DNA of 55,821 nt, from assembly GCA_030145385.1 (NCBI GenBank), contig JAQYVU010000018.1, positions 1 to 55,821 on the forward strand, given 5' to 3'. Numbering within the stretch: the stretch's first letter is position 1; every line of letters starts with the position of its first letter. Both the position numbers and the translations under genes were made by a program. This document shows, piece after piece, positions 41,301-54,819 of this stretch. The notes under the pieces are model-generated. The model was not told the origin of the DNA, did not search any database, and saw only the letters and a list, made by a program, of their open reading frames with translations. Source of the DNA: Desulfococcaceae bacterium (GTDB lineage Bacteria > Desulfobacterota > Desulfobacteria > Desulfobacterales > Desulfosalsimonadaceae).

Positions 41301-42275
41301 ATGAAACATGAAGTGCTGGTGTCGGATATTCAGAAATTTGCGGTCAATGACGGACCGGGGTTCAGAACCATTGTGTTCCTGAAAGGATGCGCCTTGAATT
41401 GCGCGTGGTGCCATAATCCGGAAACCATGTCGCCGTTTCCGGAAATCTATTGGAAAAAAAGGCTGTGTGTGCAGTGCGGTGCCTGCCTGGAAGTGTGCCC
41501 GAATCAGGCAATCAACCCGCCCATCCCGCCGGAACAGGCTTTGAACAAGGATACAAAATACCACAAAATCATCCGTGAGAAATGCGATCGCTGCATGGCG
41601 TGTGTGGATGCCTGCCGTTATGACGCGCTTTCTATTGTCGGAAAACAAATGTCGGTTGATGAAATATTAGATGAAGTGGAAAAGGACAGACCTTTTTATG
41701 ACAATTCCGGGGGCGGAATGACGTTAAGCGGTGGGGAACCGACATTACATGCGAATTTTTCGATTTCATTACTTAAAAATGCAAAATTACGAGGGTTCCA
41801 TACCTGCCTGGATACCAACGGTTTCCGTGAATGGGAGTCGTTCCGCCAGGTCGTTGAATATGCGGATCTTGTGATGTTTGATTTAAAGCATATGGATTGC
41901 AGCCTTCATAAAAAAATGACCGGGGTCGATAATATCAATATTTTAAATAACCTTTCCCTGCTTTCGAAAACAGACAAGGAAATCTGGGTGCGTATCCCGG
42001 TGATTCCGGGATTCAATGACACCCCTGATTTTCATGATCGTGCATCCGATTTTCTCGCAAATCTACCGAGGCCGATCAGCCGGGTGGATCTGCTGCCGTT
42101 TCACAACTGGTGCCAGGATAAATATGGCTGGCTGGGTATTGACTGGCCGATGAAAGACGTCGAGGCCACGGATCCTTCGTTTCTTGAAATCCCGGCGGAT
42201 TTATATATTAAAAAAGGCCTTCAGACAACGGTCGGGGGGTCCGGGTTTGAAAATTGTGAACGGGCTGCCGGCTGA
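41301..42275 (+). CDS. Glycyl-radical enzyme activating protein (radical SAM)
   Basis: The 324-residue enzyme has the radical SAM cluster motif in GCALNCAWCHNPET (CxxxCxxC, near 30-40), followed by a ferredoxin-like insert with two four-cysteine sets (CVQCGACLEVCP and CDRCMACVDAC). GGGMTLSGGEP (SAM binding) and a TIM-barrel remainder complete it. It generates the glycyl radical on the catalytic subunit encoded downstream. The double-cluster insert is typical of activases for benzylsuccinate synthase and related enzymes, while PFL activase lacks it. GAGG lies before the ATG. Confidence 0.92.
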   Translation: MKHEVLVSDIQKFAVNDGPGFRTIVFLKGCALNCAWCHNPETMSPFPEIYWKKRLCVQCGACLEVCPNQAINPPIPPEQALNKDTKYHKIIREKCDRCMACVDACRYDALSIVGKQMSVDEILDEVEKDRPFYDNSGGGMTLSGGEPTLHANFSISLLKNAKLRGFHTCLDTNGFREWESFRQVVEYADLVMFDLKHMDCSLHKKMTGVDNINILNNLSLLSKTDKEIWVRIPVIPGFNDTPDFHDRASDFLANLPRPISRVDLLPFHNWCQDKYGWLGIDWPMKDVEATDPSFLEIPADLYIKKGLQTTVGGSGFENCERAAG

Positions 42276-42354
42276 TATAGGGTGAAGTTAAATCAATCCA
42301 GGACCGTAATCAGGATCAATAAGAACAATAACCATATCACAGGAGGTGGATCAC

Positions 42355-42531
42355 ATGACAACGTGCCAGGAATGTAAAAGTTTTTTCCCACTAGACGAAG
42401 ATCAGGCAAAAGGCGATTGTGTTCAGCGGGTGAAAGATCCCCGGCAGGCCTATTATATGGCAAAACCGGTGAATGCGGAAGATGACTGCAGTTCATGCGC
42501 TTCATTTCACAAGAAAGAGTTTGTTCAATAA
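42355..42531 (+). CDS. BssC-like small (gamma-type) subunit of fumarate-adding enzyme
   Basis: The 58-residue Cys-rich protein starts MTTCQECKSFFPLDED and continues GDCVQRVKDP and CSSCASFHKKEF, close in size and opening to the gamma subunit of benzylsuccinate synthase, which carries an iron-sulfur cluster and stabilises the large subunit. AGGAGG at 42341-42346 selects the ATG at 42355. The cysteines at about 4, 7, 20, 40 and 43 could bind a [4Fe-4S] cluster. It lies 21 nt before the catalytic subunit, the usual order (activase, gamma, alpha, beta) for this enzyme class. Confidence 0.85.
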   Translation: MTTCQECKSFFPLDEDQAKGDCVQRVKDPRQAYYMAKPVNAEDDCSSCASFHKKEFVQ

Positions 42532-42552: not shown

Positions 42553-45063
42553 ATGACACAGGCGGCATTAAGAGACACAAGTGTTGATGTGTTTGAAAAG
42601 AACCAGGAATGGTGGTGGGCGGCTGAAAAAAAAAGGTCTACACGGCTGGACTATCTGAGAAAAGCGATCTGGAAAAAAGGCGCCATTGGCGGTCTGTACG
42701 CGCCCGGCGTCAAAGTTGACCTTGAACGGGCAAAGCTGCATACCCAAAAAGCAAAGGAAATGGAGGCCTCTCCGGATCCGTTTGTAATGAAATTTGCTAA
42801 AATTTTAGCACATGTCCTGGATAATAAAACCATCTTTATAACTGATCAGGCGCAGTTGGTCGGCTATACCGGCAGTCTGCCACACACCATGGCCTGGGAT
42901 CCCAGCTGTGCATCTATTTTAAATGAAGAAGCATATAATGATCCGACGGCTATTCCCGATCCGGTTGATGAGAATCAGCAGGTCATTCGGGAAATCTGTA
43001 ACTACTGGATCGGTAAGTCGGATCTGGACAAGATGATGCCGGTTTTTGACATGGAAGACCTGATGAAAATGCTGTCCGGGTCTATCGGGTGGGGTGTTCC
43101 CCTGGCGCGGGGAGGGTATTCGAACAAGGATTATGAATACATCATGACCGGCAAAAGGGCATTTGGAGATATCATTGAAGAACTGGACCGGAAAATAGAT
43201 GAAGTGGACGCGGAAGTTCATAAGCCGGGTGCGACGGCTGAAACAGCCAGAATGTATGACAAGCTCAATAACTGGGATGCCATGAAAATAACACTGGAGG
43301 CCGGTATCCGGATCGCTAAGCGATATGCGCGGCTTGCCAGAATCATTGCCGAGAATTTTGAAGAAGATCCGCAAAGAAAAGAAGAACTGTTGAAAATAGC
43401 TTCTGCCTGCGAACAGGTTCCGGCCAAACCGCCCAGAACGTTGCAGGAATCTTTTCAGTACGATATTTTTATTCAGATGATGAGTCGCAACGAAGCCATT
43501 GAAGGTGCCTGGCCCTCCCGGCCGGATTACTATCACGGGCCTTATTATGACAAGGATGTGAATATTGATAAAACCCTGACAAAGGAAGAAGCACTGGATC
43601 TAGTCGGTGAGTTCCTGATCCGCGCGGCGGAAGTGTGCCAGTTCAAACCTAAATGGACACGGGAAGGGCTGCAGGGTATCGACGGCACCTGGGTATGGAC
43701 CATGGGCGGGGTGAAAAAAGATGGAAGCGATGCCTGCAATGATTTGACCATTGCGTTTATGCAGGCCGCGCGGCTGGTCCGGGTGGCGAACCCGACGTTT
43801 TCCTTCCGGTGGCATCCGAAAGTATCAGATGAAGTCATGCGGGAAATTTTTGAATGTATCCGCCAGGGACTGGGGTATCCTTCCATGCGCCATGACCCGG
43901 TGCTGATTGCCAATTCAATGCACTGGCACGGACATCCTATCGAGGAAGCCAGAACATGGGTTCACCAGGCATGTCTGTCGCCCTGTCCGACCACCAAGCG
44001 CGGGTATCAGCCGATGCGCATGGCAAATGCAACTGCCAACTGCGCCAAGATTATCGAATATGTATTTAGCAGCGGATTCGATCATGTGGTCAACATGCAG
44101 GTGGGCGCAGAAACACCTGATGTCGCGACATTGACAAATTTTGAGGAGTTTTTCGGCGCCTGGATCGAGCAAATGAAAACGATTTTCAGCATTCTGGTCC
44201 GTGCTGTGAACCGGGCAAGGATGCTGGCACCCACATTGACGCCGAGACCTTTCCTATCCGGTATTTCCGAACGCTCGATTGAAAGTGGACTTGATACCTG
44301 TGAACCGTCTCTTGCTCAGGGCAATGCCTGGATCACAGCCTTTACATGGGTTGAAAATATCGACAGTCTGGCAGCGGTGAAAAAACTTGTTTTTGATGAA
44401 AAAAAATACACCCTGGCCGAACTCAAAGAAGCACTTGCCAAAAACTGGGAAGGTTGTGAGGAAATGCGACTGGATTTTGTAATAAATGCGCCCAAGTGGG
44501 GAAATGATGACGATTATGTGGATGATATCATGCTGCGCTGCCTGGATGAAGCAGCGAAATTCTCCAAAGTGCTTAAATGTCCGTCAGGAAACAACTGGCC
44601 GATTCTGCCGGAAAATGTCAGCGGGAATATTCATTATGCCAATATTGTCGGCGCACTCCCCAATGGAAGGCGTTTGGGCGACGCTCTCTATGATGGCGGT
44701 GTTTCTCCGGGGCCGGGTCTTGATAAAAACGGACCGACAGCGGTGCTGAAATCCTGCGGTAAAATTGATCATATCACCGGCGGCAGAGCGTTTTTGTTAA
44801 ACCAGAGATTGTCCCCCACGCAGCTGGCCGACGAAAAGGGATATCAGTTGTGGCGGGCCTATATGCGAACCTGGGCGGATTTAGGAATTGACCATATTCA
44901 GTTTAACATGGTGGATGATAAAACACTGCGTTCAGCCCAAAAGGATCCGGAAAAATACCAGGAGGTCATTGTCCGTGTGGCTGGCTACAGTGCCCATTTT
45001 GTTGATATCAGCCGGAAGACTCAGGATAACATCATCCAGCGGACGGTTCAGGGGTTGGGATAA
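42553..45063 (+). CDS. Fumarate-adding glycyl radical enzyme, catalytic (alpha) subunit
   Basis: The 836-residue subunit belongs to the benzylsuccinate/alkylsuccinate synthase group. The thiyl cysteine is Cys474 in VHQACLSPCPTTK and the radical glycine is Gly811 in RVAGYSAHFVDIS, near the C terminus as in all such enzymes. The ending QDNIIQRTVQGLG matches the group. It would abstract hydrogen from a hydrocarbon and add the carbon radical to fumarate. Neighbouring mutase genes point to an alkane-type substrate ((1-methylalkyl)succinate synthase), but toluene-type or other substrates cannot be excluded from sequence. AAGGAG lies before the ATG. A second Cys (478) close to the thiyl residue is noteworthy. 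Confidence 0.93.
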   Translation: MTQAALRDTSVDVFEKNQEWWWAAEKKRSTRLDYLRKAIWKKGAIGGLYAPGVKVDLERAKLHTQKAKEMEASPDPFVMKFAKILAHVLDNKTIFITDQAQLVGYTGSLPHTMAWDPSCASILNEEAYNDPTAIPDPVDENQQVIREICNYWIGKSDLDKMMPVFDMEDLMKMLSGSIGWGVPLARGGYSNKDYEYIMTGKRAFGDIIEELDRKIDEVDAEVHKPGATAETARMYDKLNNWDAMKITLEAGIRIAKRYARLARIIAENFEEDPQRKEELLKIASACEQVPAKPPRTLQESFQYDIFIQMMSRNEAIEGAWPSRPDYYHGPYYDKDVNIDKTLTKEEALDLVGEFLIRAAEVCQFKPKWTREGLQGIDGTWVWTMGGVKKDGSDACNDLTIAFMQAARLVRVANPTFSFRWHPKVSDEVMREIFECIRQGLGYPSMRHDPVLIANSMHWHGHPIEEARTWVHQACLSPCPTTKRGYQPMRMANATANCAKIIEYVFSSGFDHVVNMQVGAETPDVATLTNFEEFFGAWIEQMKTIFSILVRAVNRARMLAPTLTPRPFLSGISERSIESGLDTCEPSLAQGNAWITAFTWVENIDSLAAVKKLVFDEKKYTLAELKEALAKNWEGCEEMRLDFVINAPKWGNDDDYVDDIMLRCLDEAAKFSKVLKCPSGNNWPILPENVSGNIHYANIVGALPNGRRLGDALYDGGVSPGPGLDKNGPTAVLKSCGKIDHITGGRAFLLNQRLSPTQLADEKGYQLWRAYMRTWADLGIDHIQFNMVDDKTLRSAQKDPEKYQEVIVRVAGYSAHFVDISRKTQDNIIQRTVQGLG

Positions 45064-45083: not shown

Positions 45084-45111
45084 GCAGCCCGGCCATAATT
45101 GACCGGGCTGC
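45084..45111. other. Intercistronic hairpin between alpha and beta subunit genes
   Basis: A perfect 9-bp GC-rich stem (GCAGCCCGG, 45084-45092, with 45103-45111) lies 20 nt after the alpha-subunit stop. No T-run follows, so it is more likely an mRNA stability or processing element, or a partial attenuator, than a full terminator. Confidence 0.65.
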
Positions 45112-45143
45112 AGATCAAAAATTTTCAGGTGGAGAATCGTATT

Positions 45144-45503
45144 ATGTCCAGAAGAGATGAAAAAAGACAGGCATATACCAGTATGTTAATTCCTGAGAAA
45201 AAGGAAGACAGCAGCGCAAAAAGGGTGGGACAGAAAATATGTGGTACCTGTAAAAATTACATGGAAAGTTCCTGGTCCAACGATGGGCGAGGGTCCTGCA
45301 GTTGCCTCAAAATGGGATCGAATATCAGCATTAGCCCGCCGTTATATGTGTTAGATGGAAAAGAAGGATATTTGACCAAAACATTGTCAGACGCGGCTGC
45401 CTGTAAATATTTCGACAAGATGAAAATGATCGATAAAGACGGCTATGAATGCAGTGATCCGATTTATCGACGGTCGATGCGGCAATTGCAGCAAAATGAC
45501 TAA
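45144..45503 (+). CDS. BssB-like small (beta-type) subunit of fumarate-adding enzyme
   Basis: From the ATG at 45144 (AGGTGGAG site) the product is 119 residues. The core CGTCKNYMESSWSNDGRGSC, then AACKYFDK, gives the Cys spacing of the beta subunit of benzylsuccinate synthase, which binds a HiPIP-like [4Fe-4S] cluster. It is longer than the about 80-residue BssB, with extra basic sequence at the N terminus and a C-terminal tail (DPIYRRSMRQLQQ). Its stop codon touches repeat copy B. Confidence 0.8.
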   Translation: MSRRDEKRQAYTSMLIPEKKEDSSAKRVGQKICGTCKNYMESSWSNDGRGSCSCLKMGSNISISPPLYVLDGKEGYLTKTLSDAAACKYFDKMKMIDKDGYECSDPIYRRSMRQLQQND

Positions 45504-45686: not shown

Positions 45687-45902
45687 ATGAAATGCACAGA
45701 ATGCGGAAATGTTGTCCCTGTAAAAGATTTTCGCTATCTTTATAACGCACGGATAGATTCGTCAATCAGCATCAGGCAGTGCACAAAATGTGAAACATGG
45801 CTGGCTGTTGATGAACTCAATGGTGTTGTTACCCAGGCAGTCGGTGCCGGGGAAGCACCATGGGGGAAATCAGCCGGTATAGAAGGGGTGGCTGCAGCAT
45901 AA
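45687..45902 (+). CDS. Small zinc-ribbon protein
   Basis: A 71-residue protein with two CxxC knuckles: CTECGN at the start and CTKCET near 32-37. It ends in an Ala/Gly-rich tail. AAAGGAG precedes the ATG. Four cysteines in this spacing normally bind one zinc ion or form a rubredoxin-like site. It lies between the small-subunit gene and the TGA-containing gene; its role in the GRE system is unknown. Confidence 0.75.
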   Translation: MKCTECGNVVPVKDFRYLYNARIDSSISIRQCTKCETWLAVDELNGVVTQAVGAGEAPWGKSAGIEGVAAA

Positions 45903-45914
45903 GGGAAAGAAAGT

Positions 45915-46253
45915 ATGGAAATGATATGTCGAAACTGCGGCCATACCGACGAATACACGGGATTTGATTTTTTGTGCAAGAACGGGTGACCGGCAACCGG
46001 AGAGTCTGATCTCCGGCAATGTCCCCGTTGCGGGACAGAATGCGTGTTTTCTCGATCTGAATCACTCTATGATGAAGAAGATCAGATGCGCCGGCTTTCC
46101 AGAAAACTTGCGGCAATCTCAAAAACAAAAGATACGACTCTTTTAGCCGTAGCAAAAGAACTGATTATACGGTTGAAAACGATCAACCGGCGCTGGAATA
46201 TTGACGGACTGAATCGATTCATCAAGGATAAACAGAGAGAACTTTTCTTTTAA
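45915..46253 (+). CDS. Zinc-ribbon protein interrupted by in-frame TGA (candidate selenoprotein)
   Basis: One frame runs from ATG 45915 (AAGGGA site, 12 nt after the previous stop) to TAA 46251-46253 with a single interruption, TGA at codon 25 (45987-45989). Before it are CRNCGHTDEY and DFLCKNG; after it are QCPRCGTECVF and a helical C-terminal part (LLAVAKELIIRLKTINRRWN). The CxxC before and CxxC after the TGA form one zinc ribbon only if the frame is read through, which argues that the two halves belong to one protein. A hairpin lies immediately downstream. Full length would be 112 residues with selenocysteine at 25. Alternatives are a real nonsense mutation, a sequencing error, or two separate products. 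Confidence 0.6.
45997..46016 (+). promoter_or_regulatory. SECIS-like hairpin after the in-frame TGA
   Basis: A perfect 7-bp stem (CCGGAGA, 45997-46003, with TCTCCGG, 46010-46016) closes loop GTCTGA. Bacterial SECIS hairpins sit in the coding region just after UGA with a G in the first loop positions; GUCU also occurs in the E. coli fdhF loop. Spacing from TGA to the stem is 7 nt, somewhat shorter than the about 11 nt of fdhF, a point against. Confidence 0.45.
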
Positions 46254-46270: not shown

Positions 46271-47122
46271 ATGGAAAATATTCAAAAAAAAATAGCTGTT
46301 CCTGAACCGGATGGACATTTTTTTCTGCCCGAATCAGTCATTGATAACATTCACCGGATAAGCCTTCTTTCAAAGCGCCATCCGGTAAATGTGCTCGTGG
46401 CAGGAAAGCAGGGTTGCGGCAAGTCGACACTGGTCCGGCAGTTTGCCGCACGGAACAACCGGCCGCTGGCGACCTTTCAGATCGGGCTGCTTTCTGAACC
46501 CGGACAGCTGTTCGGCGAACACGCATTAAAGGACGGGGAAACCTATTACAAGAAATTTCTTTTTCCGGATGCTATCCAGACACCAGGCTGTGTCATCCAT
46601 CTTGAGGAAATCAACCGGCCGGAACATCCCAAGGCGCTGAATATGTTGTTTTCCGTTTTGTCCGAAGACCGGAGTATTTATACGGACGAGCTGAATCATA
46701 TAAGGGTGGCGGATGATGTGGTTTTTTTTGCTACGTTAAATGAAGGGGATGAGTTTGTCGGCACGGAAATGCTGGATGCCGCGCTGCGGGATCGGTTTTA
46801 TGTGACGCTTTTAGATTATCTGCCGCCGGAGGTAGAAACCCGTGTGCTTTGTTTAAAAACGGGCATTAAAGAAGCCGACGCCCAGACTATCGTCAATGTG
46901 GCTGCCAGACTTCGAAATAATTCGCGGCACCCGATGGTGGTATCGACCCGGCATACGTTGATGATTGCGGAAATGATATCTGTCGGTTCGACTGTGGAAC
47001 AGGCATTTTCCGGTAGCCTTCAGATCAGTCGGGACATGCTGGAGTCTGTTCTGCTTTCCCTGCATGTGGAAACAGGAAAAACATTTAACGGCACGAATGG
47101 AAACGGCTATCAGCGCTATTAG
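46271..47122 (+). CDS. MoxR-type AAA ATPase
   Basis: The 283-residue ATPase has Walker A AGKQGCGKST near 44-53, Walker B VIHLEEINRPEHPKALN near 108-124, sensor FFATLNEGDEF near 154-164 and arginine-finger ALRDRFYV. MoxR/NorQ-type proteins act with VWA proteins as metal-cofactor or assembly chaperones. BssE in toluene-degrading loci belongs to the same group. It begins 17 nt after the TGA-containing gene and overlaps the start of the VWA partner. Confidence 0.88.
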   Translation: MENIQKKIAVPEPDGHFFLPESVIDNIHRISLLSKRHPVNVLVAGKQGCGKSTLVRQFAARNNRPLATFQIGLLSEPGQLFGEHALKDGETYYKKFLFPDAIQTPGCVIHLEEINRPEHPKALNMLFSVLSEDRSIYTDELNHIRVADDVVFFATLNEGDEFVGTEMLDAALRDRFYVTLLDYLPPEVETRVLCLKTGIKEADAQTIVNVAARLRNNSRHPMVVSTRHTLMIAEMISVGSTVEQAFSGSLQISRDMLESVLLSLHVETGKTFNGTNGNGYQRY

Positions 47123-48887
47123 ATGCAGTCAAATAATCCCGACTCAACCACCGGAATCTTTTTTACCAGTCAAAGACAAAGGCAGAAATGATTATGCCTC
47201 TTTGACAAAAACCCGAAGCGGCATATCAGCGTACTGGCGAAAAAATATCTCGTCTGTTGAATCTATTGAACTGGCCAATCTGCTTCGTGCGTTAAGGAAA
47301 GTTGCCGGTCATCTGGGTAAAAATACCGGTCGGATTGCTTACACCGGTATGTCGACTACCTGCGATAACACGATTCTGATCGAACCGGAAATGTTAATGG
47401 GCGTCTATCCTGTGCCTGATAAACAGGTGGATCTTCTGGTCGGCTTGATCGTTCATGAAGCATTGCATCGTATTGAATGGACGGATTATGTATGGAAGAA
47501 TCTTGAACCGGCGATGGAAGCCATGAGGCCCATGGAAAAGGTGGTTTTCCAGAAAATTGTCCGCACCGGAGAGGATATATTTGTTGATCAGAAAGCTGAT
47601 CAAAGTGTTTTTGGCCTTTATGTCAAGATAGCCAGAGAAAAGTCGTTACGCCGTGAAAGAAAAATGATTGTTACGGATACGCCAAGTGTGGATGAACTTG
47701 AGCTGGAGTGGCTGAACTGCGCGTTTAACATTCATTCGGATCGTAAAATCCGGATCGAATACAATTTTTTTCTTCAGGAATTGAACGAACTGACACTGGC
47801 TTTGCGGTCTTTGGCTTTAAAATCAACCCGTGTTATAAAAAGATGCGAAAAAAGAGCCGGTCTGTATCTTGCCATATGGCAGCAGGTGAAAAGCCGGATA
47901 ATAAGCTTAAAAATCATTGATAAACATTTGTGCTGGTTCCCATCCACAGAAGATTTCAAGACGGCAAAAGTGTGTGCACCCGGTTGTCAGCGGAAAAGTG
48001 CAAAAAAAATGACGCCGTTTCTGGCACAAGAAATCGAAACACATCTTTCTGCTGATGCAGTGGATATGACGCCGATCATTCGATCCGTTGTGGGGGTAGA
48101 GAATGAAACCGTTGCCCCCATGTCCAGGTGGGATTTTAATATTATTGCACACCCGGTGATTGACCGGAAAATGGTCGGCCGCCTGAAAGCAATTTTTTCA
48201 AATTATGCGGACCGGAATTTTATCGTGAGCCGGGGGCTTTCCAGCGGACGGATAGACCACCGGAGGCTTTATCGGGCAGTGGTAAACGGAAGGTGTTTCA
48301 AGGCCGCAGACCGTGTTTCGAACCCGGACTGGAATGTCGCGCTGTTAATTGATGCCAGCGGATCGATGCGCGGCAATAAATGGCAGATGGTTGAAAATAC
48401 GGTTGCCAGCATTCACAAATCTTTGACCGGCTTTCATAATCGTTTGTCTGCATGGGCGTATTTTGAGGTCAACGGTATCTGTATGATTTCCCGGCTGATT
48501 CATAAGAATCGGCTTTTTTCTGTGCCGCCTTCCGGCCAGACCGCTTCCGGGCAGGCCATTATCGCAGCGGCCACCATGATGCCGGATAATATCAAACGCA
48601 ATATTCTGATCCATATTACGGACGGCGAATCTAATTTCGGCTGTGATGTATCCTATGGCATTGAATACTGCCGTCAGCAGAAGATCCATCTGATCACTCT
48701 CGGATGCGGTTATAAAAATAAAACAGCCATGAAGAAACAATACGGTAGAACCATTCAGTTTATTGACTATTTCGAACAATTACCAAAAGCAGTGGAGGCA
48801 CTTTTCAGATGGGCATTTGTCTACGGCGGACGGCAGACCTTTCCAAGTGCCGGTGATTCATCTAAATTCATCCTGAAAAATAAATAA
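47097..48887 (+). CDS. VWA protein with N-terminal metallopeptidase-like HExxH motif
   Basis: The 596-residue protein overlaps moxR by 26 nt, indicating coupled translation (an ATG at 47064 is an alternative start). The N-terminal half contains IVHEALH (His120-His124, an HExxH pattern), as in VWA-like proteins with a putative metallopeptidase domain. The C-terminal VWA domain carries the MIDAS motif DASGS (Asp419-Ser423), then HITDGESNFG. MoxR-VWA pairs typically remodel or insert metal centres in partner enzymes. Here the natural client is the GRE complex or its small iron-sulfur subunits. Confidence 0.8.
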   Translation: METAISAIRCSQIIPTQPPESFLPVKDKGRNDYASLTKTRSGISAYWRKNISSVESIELANLLRALRKVAGHLGKNTGRIAYTGMSTTCDNTILIEPEMLMGVYPVPDKQVDLLVGLIVHEALHRIEWTDYVWKNLEPAMEAMRPMEKVVFQKIVRTGEDIFVDQKADQSVFGLYVKIAREKSLRRERKMIVTDTPSVDELELEWLNCAFNIHSDRKIRIEYNFFLQELNELTLALRSLALKSTRVIKRCEKRAGLYLAIWQQVKSRIISLKIIDKHLCWFPSTEDFKTAKVCAPGCQRKSAKKMTPFLAQEIETHLSADAVDMTPIIRSVVGVENETVAPMSRWDFNIIAHPVIDRKMVGRLKAIFSNYADRNFIVSRGLSSGRIDHRRLYRAVVNGRCFKAADRVSNPDWNVALLIDASGSMRGNKWQMVENTVASIHKSLTGFHNRLSAWAYFEVNGICMISRLIHKNRLFSVPPSGQTASGQAIIAAATMMPDNIKRNILIHITDGESNFGCDVSYGIEYCRQQKIHLITLGCGYKNKTAMKKQYGRTIQFIDYFEQLPKAVEALFRWAFVYGGRQTFPSAGDSSKFILKNK

Positions 48888-54193: not shown

Positions 54194-54547
54194 ATGCGAA
54201 AAATTAAATTCTATAGATCCGAAACTGGTAATTGTCCTGTTGAAAAATATTTCGATTCGCTTACAAATAAACAATTTGAAAAAATAGCCTTTGTTCTTGA
54301 TATTATCGAACAACTTGACATTGTACCGCGAAAATTTTTCAAGAAGCTTCAAGGGACTAATGACATTTGGGAGGTTAGGGCGCAACAAGGCAATAATATT
54401 TTTCGAATATTGGGCTTTTTTGATGGGAAAGATCTTGTTATTTTAAACCATGCTTTCACAAAAAAATCTCAAAAAATTCCTCAAAAGGAAATTGCCGTTG
54501 CCGAAAAACGCCAACAAGATTATTTTAACCGAAAGGTAAAAGAATGA
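54194..54547 (+). CDS. RelE/HigB-type toxin (Gp49-like)
   Basis: The 117-residue basic protein has the Gp49/HigB layout: MRKIKFYRSETGNCPVEKYF, LQGTNDIWEVRAQQGNNIFRILGFFDGKDLVILNHAFTKK and a Lys-rich tail. Members usually cleave mRNA on the ribosome. It overlaps the antitoxin gene by four nucleotides (ATGA), the toxin-first order of higBA-type operons. No Shine-Dalgarno is visible upstream. Confidence 0.85.
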   Translation: MRKIKFYRSETGNCPVEKYFDSLTNKQFEKIAFVLDIIEQLDIVPRKFFKKLQGTNDIWEVRAQQGNNIFRILGFFDGKDLVILNHAFTKKSQKIPQKEIAVAEKRQQDYFNRKVKE

Positions 54548-54819
54548 GTGATTTACAAAAATATAAAAAAAAACGTGCGGAGCAAGATCCCAAATTTTGG
54601 ACAGGATACGATGACCGCCTTGAGACTTTTAAGCTTGGCATTATGCTGAAGCAAGCTCGCCTTGAATCCGGCCTGACTCAGGAACAAATCGCAAAAAGCT
54701 TAAAGACAACAAAGTCAGTCATTTCTCGTATAGAAAACCATGCAACTGATATTCGGCTTTCGACACTCGAAAAATTCGCGAAGGCATTGGGACGAAAAAT
54801 TCATGTAACCCTGTTGTAA
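54544..54819 (+). CDS. XRE-family antitoxin
   Basis: The 91-residue protein has a Cro/CI-type HTH at about 33-88 (LKQARLESGLTQEQIAKSLKTTKSVISRIENH). The N-terminal part likely wraps the toxin. Starting within the ATGA overlap, it is translated by coupling to the toxin gene and would bind the palindrome at 54166-54187. Confidence 0.87.
   Translation: MSDLQKYKKKRAEQDPKFWTGYDDRLETFKLGIMLKQARLESGLTQEQIAKSLKTTKSVISRIENHATDIRLSTLEKFAKALGRKIHVTLL

Follow-up and report, generated by a model that had tools for sequence, protein, structure and literature searches.

The activation of alkanes by fumarate addition is a main anaerobic route of oil breakdown (PMC4703814). The closest described relative of the protein discussed here belongs to an enzyme of this route, (1-methylalkyl)succinate synthase (MASS). 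According to the 2025 cryo-EM study (PMC12358834), the MasE delta subunit is rubredoxin-like, binds one Fe on Cys3, Cys6, Cys32 and Cys35 and occupies the place at which the activase has to dock; the authors call its purpose 'enigmatic'. MASS produced in E. coli was obtained in low yield and was unstable. The string 'selen' does not occur in the main text of that article. On the selenoprotein side, a 2026 review (PMC13188914) states that it covers 119 families, and no entry of its catalogue, compared by name and motif rather than by sequence, was linked to a fumarate-adding or glycyl radical enzyme (GRE). No counterpart was found in the available text of PMC12013277, PMC9312934, PMC8318568 and PMC4402382, and searches combining selenium with Mas, Bss, fumarate addition or glycyl radical enzymes returned none among the matches listed, in the main text of openly accessible articles. 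A small gene of an alkane-activation operon is reported here that very probably encodes a selenium-containing protein, undescribed in the sense of not being found within the literature so covered.

The gene lies in a stretch of 55,821 nucleotides, hereafter the window, from a Desulfococcaceae bacterium. The relevant features are the following.

41301-42275, + strand: radical SAM glycyl radical activating enzyme (TIGR02494, 332.7 bits, cut-off 174.35)
42352-42531, + strand, also taken as 42346-42531: masC, MASS gamma (PDB 9o8u_C, E=1.2e-14; 59-61 aa)
42553-45063, + strand: masD, catalytic glycyl radical subunit of (1-methylalkyl)succinate synthase (PDB 9o8u_A, 1244 bits; PF02901, PF01228)
45099-45503, + strand: masB, MASS beta (PDB 9o8u_B, E=1.1e-27)
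45687-45902, + strand: masE, MASS delta, rubredoxin-like, paralogue of the N-terminal half of the putative selenoprotein (PDB 9o8u_D, E=5.6e-21)
45915-46253, + strand: putative selenoprotein gene encoding 112 aa with a predicted Sec25; the N-terminal half (1-50) is rubredoxin-like, the C-terminal half (54-111) helical
45987-45989, + strand: in-frame TGA, codon 25, read as selenocysteine on the basis of the TGA/Cys pattern in relatives
45997-46016, + strand: hairpin 1, arms 45997-46003/46010-46016, perfect 7-bp stem, loop GTCTGA, UGA-to-loop 14 nt
46020-46037, + strand: hairpin 2, arms 46020-46025/46032-46037, perfect 6-bp stem, loop CGTTGC, UGA-to-loop 36 nt
46271-47122, + strand: MoxR-type AAA ATPase gene (PF07728)
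47064-48887, + strand: VWA-domain protein, commonly encoded next to the AAA gene (PF00092)

An earlier note, made from the sequence alone, had placed this gene in a fumarate-addition (GRE) locus, and the assignment can now be refined to the alkane-adding MASS complex: all four subunits are encoded in the operon, each matched to its own chain of PDB 9o8u. The gene order runs from the activase through MasC, MasD, MasB, MasE, the putative selenoprotein, the MoxR-type AAA and VWA proteins to a crotonase and an acyl-CoA ligase, and is largely preserved in relatives. Parts of methylmalonyl-CoA mutase, MeaB and a PrpD-like protein are encoded upstream. The masC gene escapes open reading frame lists with an 80-aa cut-off. 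Elsewhere in the window a Gp49-like (DUF891) frame (54194-54547) is followed by an overlapping frame (54544-54819), an arrangement that we take to resemble a toxin-antitoxin pair.

The frame 45915-46253 comprises 112 codons closed by TAA, and its sole internal stop is the TGA at codon 25, exactly as claimed earlier. The two CxxC knuckles likewise lie one on each side of this codon (C5xxC8 and C36xxC39). As for the ribosome site attributed to the gene, a purine run, GGGAAAGAAAG, does precede the ATG, but it is weak. At such genes, standard annotation would probably report a 24-aa fragment or nothing.

Relatives were collected in two ways. A pattern scan of GTDB genomes, with patterns built from the window protein sequence alone, yielded two loci, both in Desulfatibacillum and both with TGC at codon 25. 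A profile search was run against 389 genomes of the order (E 0.001) and 395 of the phylum (E 0.0001), two partly overlapping sets, the latter phylum being, as we assume from named records, Desulfobacterota; matches were obtained in 29 and 19 genomes, respectively. After removal of duplicates (among Desulfatibacillum, L003 and L092 repeat L027, L004 and L078 repeat L026) and of short matches, a full-length set of 39 sequences from 38 genomes was retained, the window's included. Fragments, other small zinc ribbons and MasE (L002, L052, L053, L091, L093-L096, L098-L102) were excluded, as were short profile matches without an assigned locus, and L048-L051 and L097 were counted apart as distant relatives. 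Alignment A6 contains 38 of the 39 members, L034 being omitted for its early TAA. Searching plasmids by tblastn with a Cys homologue gave no match.

Codon 25 is TGA in 32 of the 39 full-length members, TGC in six and TGT in one, so that the earlier reading of codon 25 as selenocysteine is supported by TGA or Cys in every member, and none ends before this codon or carries an unrelated residue there. The TGA members are spread over 16 family codes. On the best tree, built without columns 25 and 28, a minimum of five changes between Sec and Cys is needed, three of them forced by starred branches. C5, C8, C36 and C39 do not vary, and C21 hardly does; A27, G29, R34, C36, P37, C39 and G40 are invariant in the 38 aligned members. 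Residue 28 is Cys or Thr, with Thr in 9 of the 32 TGA members, the window among them. Beyond the TGA, where the earlier note had judged the frame to read as plausible protein, pN/pS is 0.11-0.39 (Nei-Gojobori, 12 different close pairs), which indicates purifying selection.

The same comparison among the five distant near-full-length relatives gave a divided outcome. L048-L051 (25-28% identity) carry TGA at the aligned codon, but L097 (G571:C201:4975-5289, - strand), a divergent sequence that matches residues 3-108 (E 3.4e-8), contains no stop, and its loop between the knuckles lacks both Sec and Cys; the same genome carries a TGA member, L089. In the divergent group formed by L048-L051, L072, L073, L120 and L121, all with TGA at the aligned codon, the hairpin is placed differently: it has the form GAGGG-AATG-CCCTC and starts about 15 nt after the TGA. 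These loci contain an activase and/or VWA gene, and the MasD-like enzymes of the genomes are 43-46% identical.

Three ways of accounting for the TGA without selenocysteine can be weighed against these data. Since the window is a single MAG contig and its protein has Thr at position 28, a dying frame or a sequencing error that turned TGC or TGG into TGA could be imagined; the TGA recurs in 32 genomes, which a sequencing error cannot explain, and with its spread over the family codes and the selection acting downstream this recurrence leaves the explanation rejected, with next to no probability. A frame open on both sides would also be expected if UGA specified another amino acid, for example Trp, or were leakily read through. 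All seven non-TGA full-length members have Cys and never Trp, TGA terminates 8 of the 32 window frames taken as genes, and the selenocysteine machinery is present except selB; a general reassignment is therefore rejected as highly improbable. The last possibility, a true stop releasing a 24-aa peptide with the C-terminal part restarting at Met58, would fit the start codon that 31 of the 32 TGA members have at codon 58. However, codons 26-57, which would belong to neither product, encode many of the invariant residues, and the Cys members form a single frame, so that this explanation too was rejected and is given very little chance. Selenocysteine insertion at codon 25 is thus strongly supported by the comparison of homologous genes.

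In the proposed mechanism, the UGA at codon 25 would be decoded as selenocysteine by means of the hairpins directly 3' of the codon. The exact coordinates of the perfect 7-bp hairpin with loop GTCTGA that the earlier note had located 7 nt after the TGA were reproduced. In the bacterial SECIS model given in PMC13188914, the stem has 4-16 bp, the loop 3-9 nt with a G in its first two positions, the spacing is 16-37 nt 'for most', and the minimum free energy is -7.5 or lower. The suspicion that the spacing from UGA is short holds for hairpin 1, which conforms to the model except that at 14 nt it lies 2 nt too close, but not for hairpin 2, which agrees in stem, loop, G and spacing (6 bp, CGTTGC, 36 nt). 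The minimum-energy fold of a 60-nt piece holds both hairpins at -22.9 kcal/mol, a value that refers to the whole piece (z -2.0; 6 of 200 shuffles fold as well). Hairpin 1 was rejected as stand-alone evidence, since a perfect 7-bp hairpin 3-19 nt downstream accompanies 30 of the 2438 TGA triplets of the window (both strands, its own included). It is because the hairpin is conserved, partly compensating and associated with the TGA/Cys pattern in relatives that it can be regarded as beyond chance.

Conservation was examined over the 32 TGA members. At hairpin 1, 92% of cells are paired, with two-sided changes at three of the seven pairs. Taken jointly, the two hairpins reach a covariation score of 0.167, where shuffles give 0.106 (0 of 500 as high); four pairs show two-sided changes against 2.2 in shuffles (reached in 11 of 500); the number of further pair types, 11 against 11.0, is no better than in shuffles (389 of 500 as high). 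When the partners are slid by 1-3 columns, pairing falls from 83% to 34-57%. Codon 28 ACC occurs with CGG at R34 in 8 of 8 cases, while TGC or TGT is accompanied by CGC in 17 members and by CGG in 4 (Fisher 1.2e-4; the 29 of 32 rows with either Arg codon), a covariation that is not significant after tree correction because the starred branches offer only three independent contrasts. Leu33 is encoded by CTC in 25 of the 30 members that have it; in the rest of these genes CTC accounts for 60 of 358 Leu codons.

The Cys members provide a comparison for the hairpins, in counts that ignore kinship. A stem of at least 5 bp with a loop G at the model spacing is present in 27 of 32 TGA but 1 of 7 Cys members, and in 21 of the 27 the longest stem sits at 35-37 nt, the place of hairpin 2. 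A stem with a loop G at 13-15 nt, the place of hairpin 1, is found in 22 of 32 against 1 of 7, so that 10 TGA members fail the loop-G test at hairpin 1. In hairpin 2 the loop G corresponds to the middle base of codon 38 and is present in 29 of 32 against 1 of 7 (again ignoring kinship). By the stem/loop-G test, L042 and L043 have hairpin 1 alone, and three TGA members of one genus (L081, L084 and L085) have neither hairpin; the genomes of the latter carry SelB.

The search for selA, selB, selC and selD that the earlier note had proposed was successful for three of the four genes. In the window genome, which is 97% complete, selA (610.7 bits) and a tRNA-Sec with anticodon tca (75.1 bits) were found, together with a selD whose two parts lie at contig ends, in C68 and C112 (L023:1471-1779, L022:2-784). 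The N-terminal part of this selD carries an in-frame TGA of its own, at what we take to be the usual Sec place of SelD. No selB was above the cut-off in this assembly, and the two best matches appear to resemble EF-Tu. In a genome of the same genus, selB lies one frame away from a gene that, by its sequence type, we assume to be HemW-like. The HemW-like gene of the window genome is cut short at residue 146, where contig C33 has 3 bases left, so that the absence of selB is most simply explained by an assembly gap, into which the gene apparently falls. SelB was above the cut-off in 40 of the 49 genomes searched, including 27 of the 32 TGA genomes, 6 of the 6 Cys-form genomes and 5 of the 5 other genomes of the same genus. 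Four genomes (G593, G327, G160 and G048) each contain two full-length SelB genes above the cut-off.

With respect to known families, the window frame itself gave none above the cut-off in Pfam and NCBIfam. For the 28 members of alignment A2, none came near its cut-off among the best 25 of 37 NCBIfam and the best 25 of 38 Pfam families, and single NCBIfam scans of 25 of the 28 led to the same result. Three described families deserve comparison. NF049953, the zinc ribbon-containing (seleno)protein DG (hypothetical protein DG of deep-Sep, PMC12013277), is also a zinc-ribbon selenoprotein, but spans 172 positions and has the catalogue motif GUxG in place of GUPAC/GUPAT; it was rejected on a weak local match of 20.2 bits at best (E=4e-4, 3 of 28 members) against a curated cut-off of 130. 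NF041197, the dual CXXC motif small (seleno)protein (OS_HP3 / hypothetical protein DW), is small, has two CxxC by name and is listed as a selenoprotein, but its catalogue motifs, RxU/GxU, differ; it was rejected because it was absent among the best 25 of 37 families for the 28 A2 members and in the single scans of 25 of them. The FmdB family zinc ribbon protein TIGR02605 is likewise small, with a UxxU selenoprotein form listed, but its best match was E=0.053, with 3 of 28 members.

A separate 66-67 aa two-knuckle protein was observed in three genomes of one genus (L093:1444-1641, - strand; L094:1501-1698, + strand; L095), with an in-frame TGA (GTGGU-HTVG) and a downstream hairpin. At the one locus examined, L119, it is encoded outside mas, next to a GltX-type synthetase, a glycosyl transferase and a radical SAM protein. 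In NCBIfam, L093 had no match at E 1e-10 and L094 none above the cut-off. This protein is possibly another undescribed selenoprotein.

The nearest kin of the window protein was instead found within its own operon. The best PDB match of the selenoprotein profile is MasE (9o8u_D, E 7.8e-4), and hhalign against 20 MasE sequences gave a probability of 94.7 and an E value of 5.9e-8 (one comparison) over 39 columns, to which the homology is confined and in which the four knuckle Cys are aligned. Both proteins thus have two CxxC knuckles (C3, C6, C32 and C35 in MasE; C5, C8, C36 and C39 here) and are encoded in the same operon. MasE differs by its length of 71 aa, by having no Sec and no equivalent of C28, and by its conserved terminal tail (PWGKSAGIE), which three C-terminal helices replace in the 112-aa protein. 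An AlphaFold2 model built from 38 sequences (mean pLDDT 84.9, pTM 0.60) places strands in residues 2-46 and helices at 47-50, 54-66, 74-94 and 97-111; the Sec loop (21-30) is the least certain part, at 68. Foldseek of this model against the PDB returned nothing at E <=0.001, the best value being 0.38 and the matches mostly kinases. The zinc ribbon of the earlier note is borne out as a two-knuckle site, and its homology to the iron-binding, rubredoxin-like MasE makes iron as likely a metal as zinc. In the window and many relatives masE adjoins the selenoprotein gene, so that the latter would encode a second protein and not a replacement: it looks like a second delta-type protein, in which a loop bearing Sec separates the knuckles and the tail is replaced by a helical domain.

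The association with MASS was assessed across genomes, with MasD accepted at E 1e-150 or better. In the order set, 32 of 389 genomes have MasD, among them 28 of the 29 with a selenoprotein match (Fisher 2.6e-37, which ignores kinship); in the phylum set it occurs in 19 genomes and in 17 of the 19 with a selenoprotein match. Without the doubtful short matches that these counts include (G283, G231 and G109), the figures become 26 of 27 and 16 of 18. In 30 of 33 cases the 1.5 kb preceding the selenoprotein gene contain a gene for a Mas subunit or an activase, and the AAA match begins 15-410 nt downstream of the selenoprotein match at 35 of the 37 full-length loci with enough sequence. No mas gene was found upstream of the selenoprotein gene in G318 and G163, and in G565 the gene lies outside any mas operon. 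Conversely, an intact copy is missing in 6 of the 32 MasD genomes of the order (G109, G217, G221, G231, G245 and G283), and in the phylum set G614, G741 and, but for MasE, G109 have no selenoprotein match. In G217, G221 and G283 masE and the AAA gene are directly joined, with no selenoprotein gene between them. The gene has been deleted in G217, whose MasD is 84% identical: the gap between masE and AAA (L104:5150-5300) retains what reads as KELFF-stop, with which the selenoprotein usually ends. In G283 solely a piece of the C-terminal half remains, on another contig. Two different activase-like genes were seen to adjoin in several mas loci (L069:3485-5382, L074:3192-5097 and L108:6868-8824).

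Comparison between genomes is what brings out the membership in the operon, the homology to MasE and the predicted Sec at codon 25. The core reading that combines them, a MasE-like MASS accessory with selenocysteine at codon 25, is held with good confidence. How the protein works is a more tentative matter. Its N-terminal half would be a rubredoxin-like metal site with C5, C8, C36 and C39 as ligands, the metal being Fe, by analogy with MasE, or Zn. A flexible loop would hold the Sec between the two knuckles that bind the metal, in a CxxxUxxC motif (UxxT in the window, where the partner of Sec is Thr), and the helical C-terminal domain would take the place of the MasE tail. The protein may bind the glycyl-radical/activase face of MasD, in conjunction with the neighbouring MoxR AAA-VWA machine; given how closely its gene is linked to that of the AAA protein, the AAA-VWA pair may serve to place or remove it. 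There, the selenol could perform thiol redox work, either reducing or repairing oxidised catalytic thiols of MasD or supplying electrons at activation, a step to which we give somewhat less than an even chance. As the gene has been lost in some MasD genomes, the protein presumably helps rather than being indispensable, and the existence of Cys forms suggests that a thiol does the job less well or under other conditions.

A serious rival, although one that we hold to be rather unlikely, has the same Sec-containing, MasE-like MASS accessory at its core and assigns to it metal handling or assembly. Sec, C21 and C28 would then make up a second site for a metal or cluster, and the protein would supply MasE with iron, or the small subunits with clusters, the AAA-VWA pair providing the drive. 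The AAA gene is indeed the most constant neighbour, C21 is nearly invariant and the site is MasE-like; on the other hand, Thr at residue 28 in the window and eight other TGA members weakens a site with several ligands. The favoured redox reading can be put forward tentatively as that of a first selenoprotein tied to a GRE, a Sec-bearing MasE paralogue that would dock at the activase face of MasD and whose selenol, powered or placed by the AAA-VWA pair, might serve in the activation, protection or repair of this alkane-attacking enzyme.

Genomes from 16 family codes encode a predicted Sec-bearing paralogue of MASS delta in much the same operon. If the protein is expressed, the supply of selenium would be linked to alkane degradation, a missing part would be offered for heterologous MASS, and the role of the delta-type domain would become testable. 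Selenium would then be tied to one of the hardest reactions in anaerobic biology.
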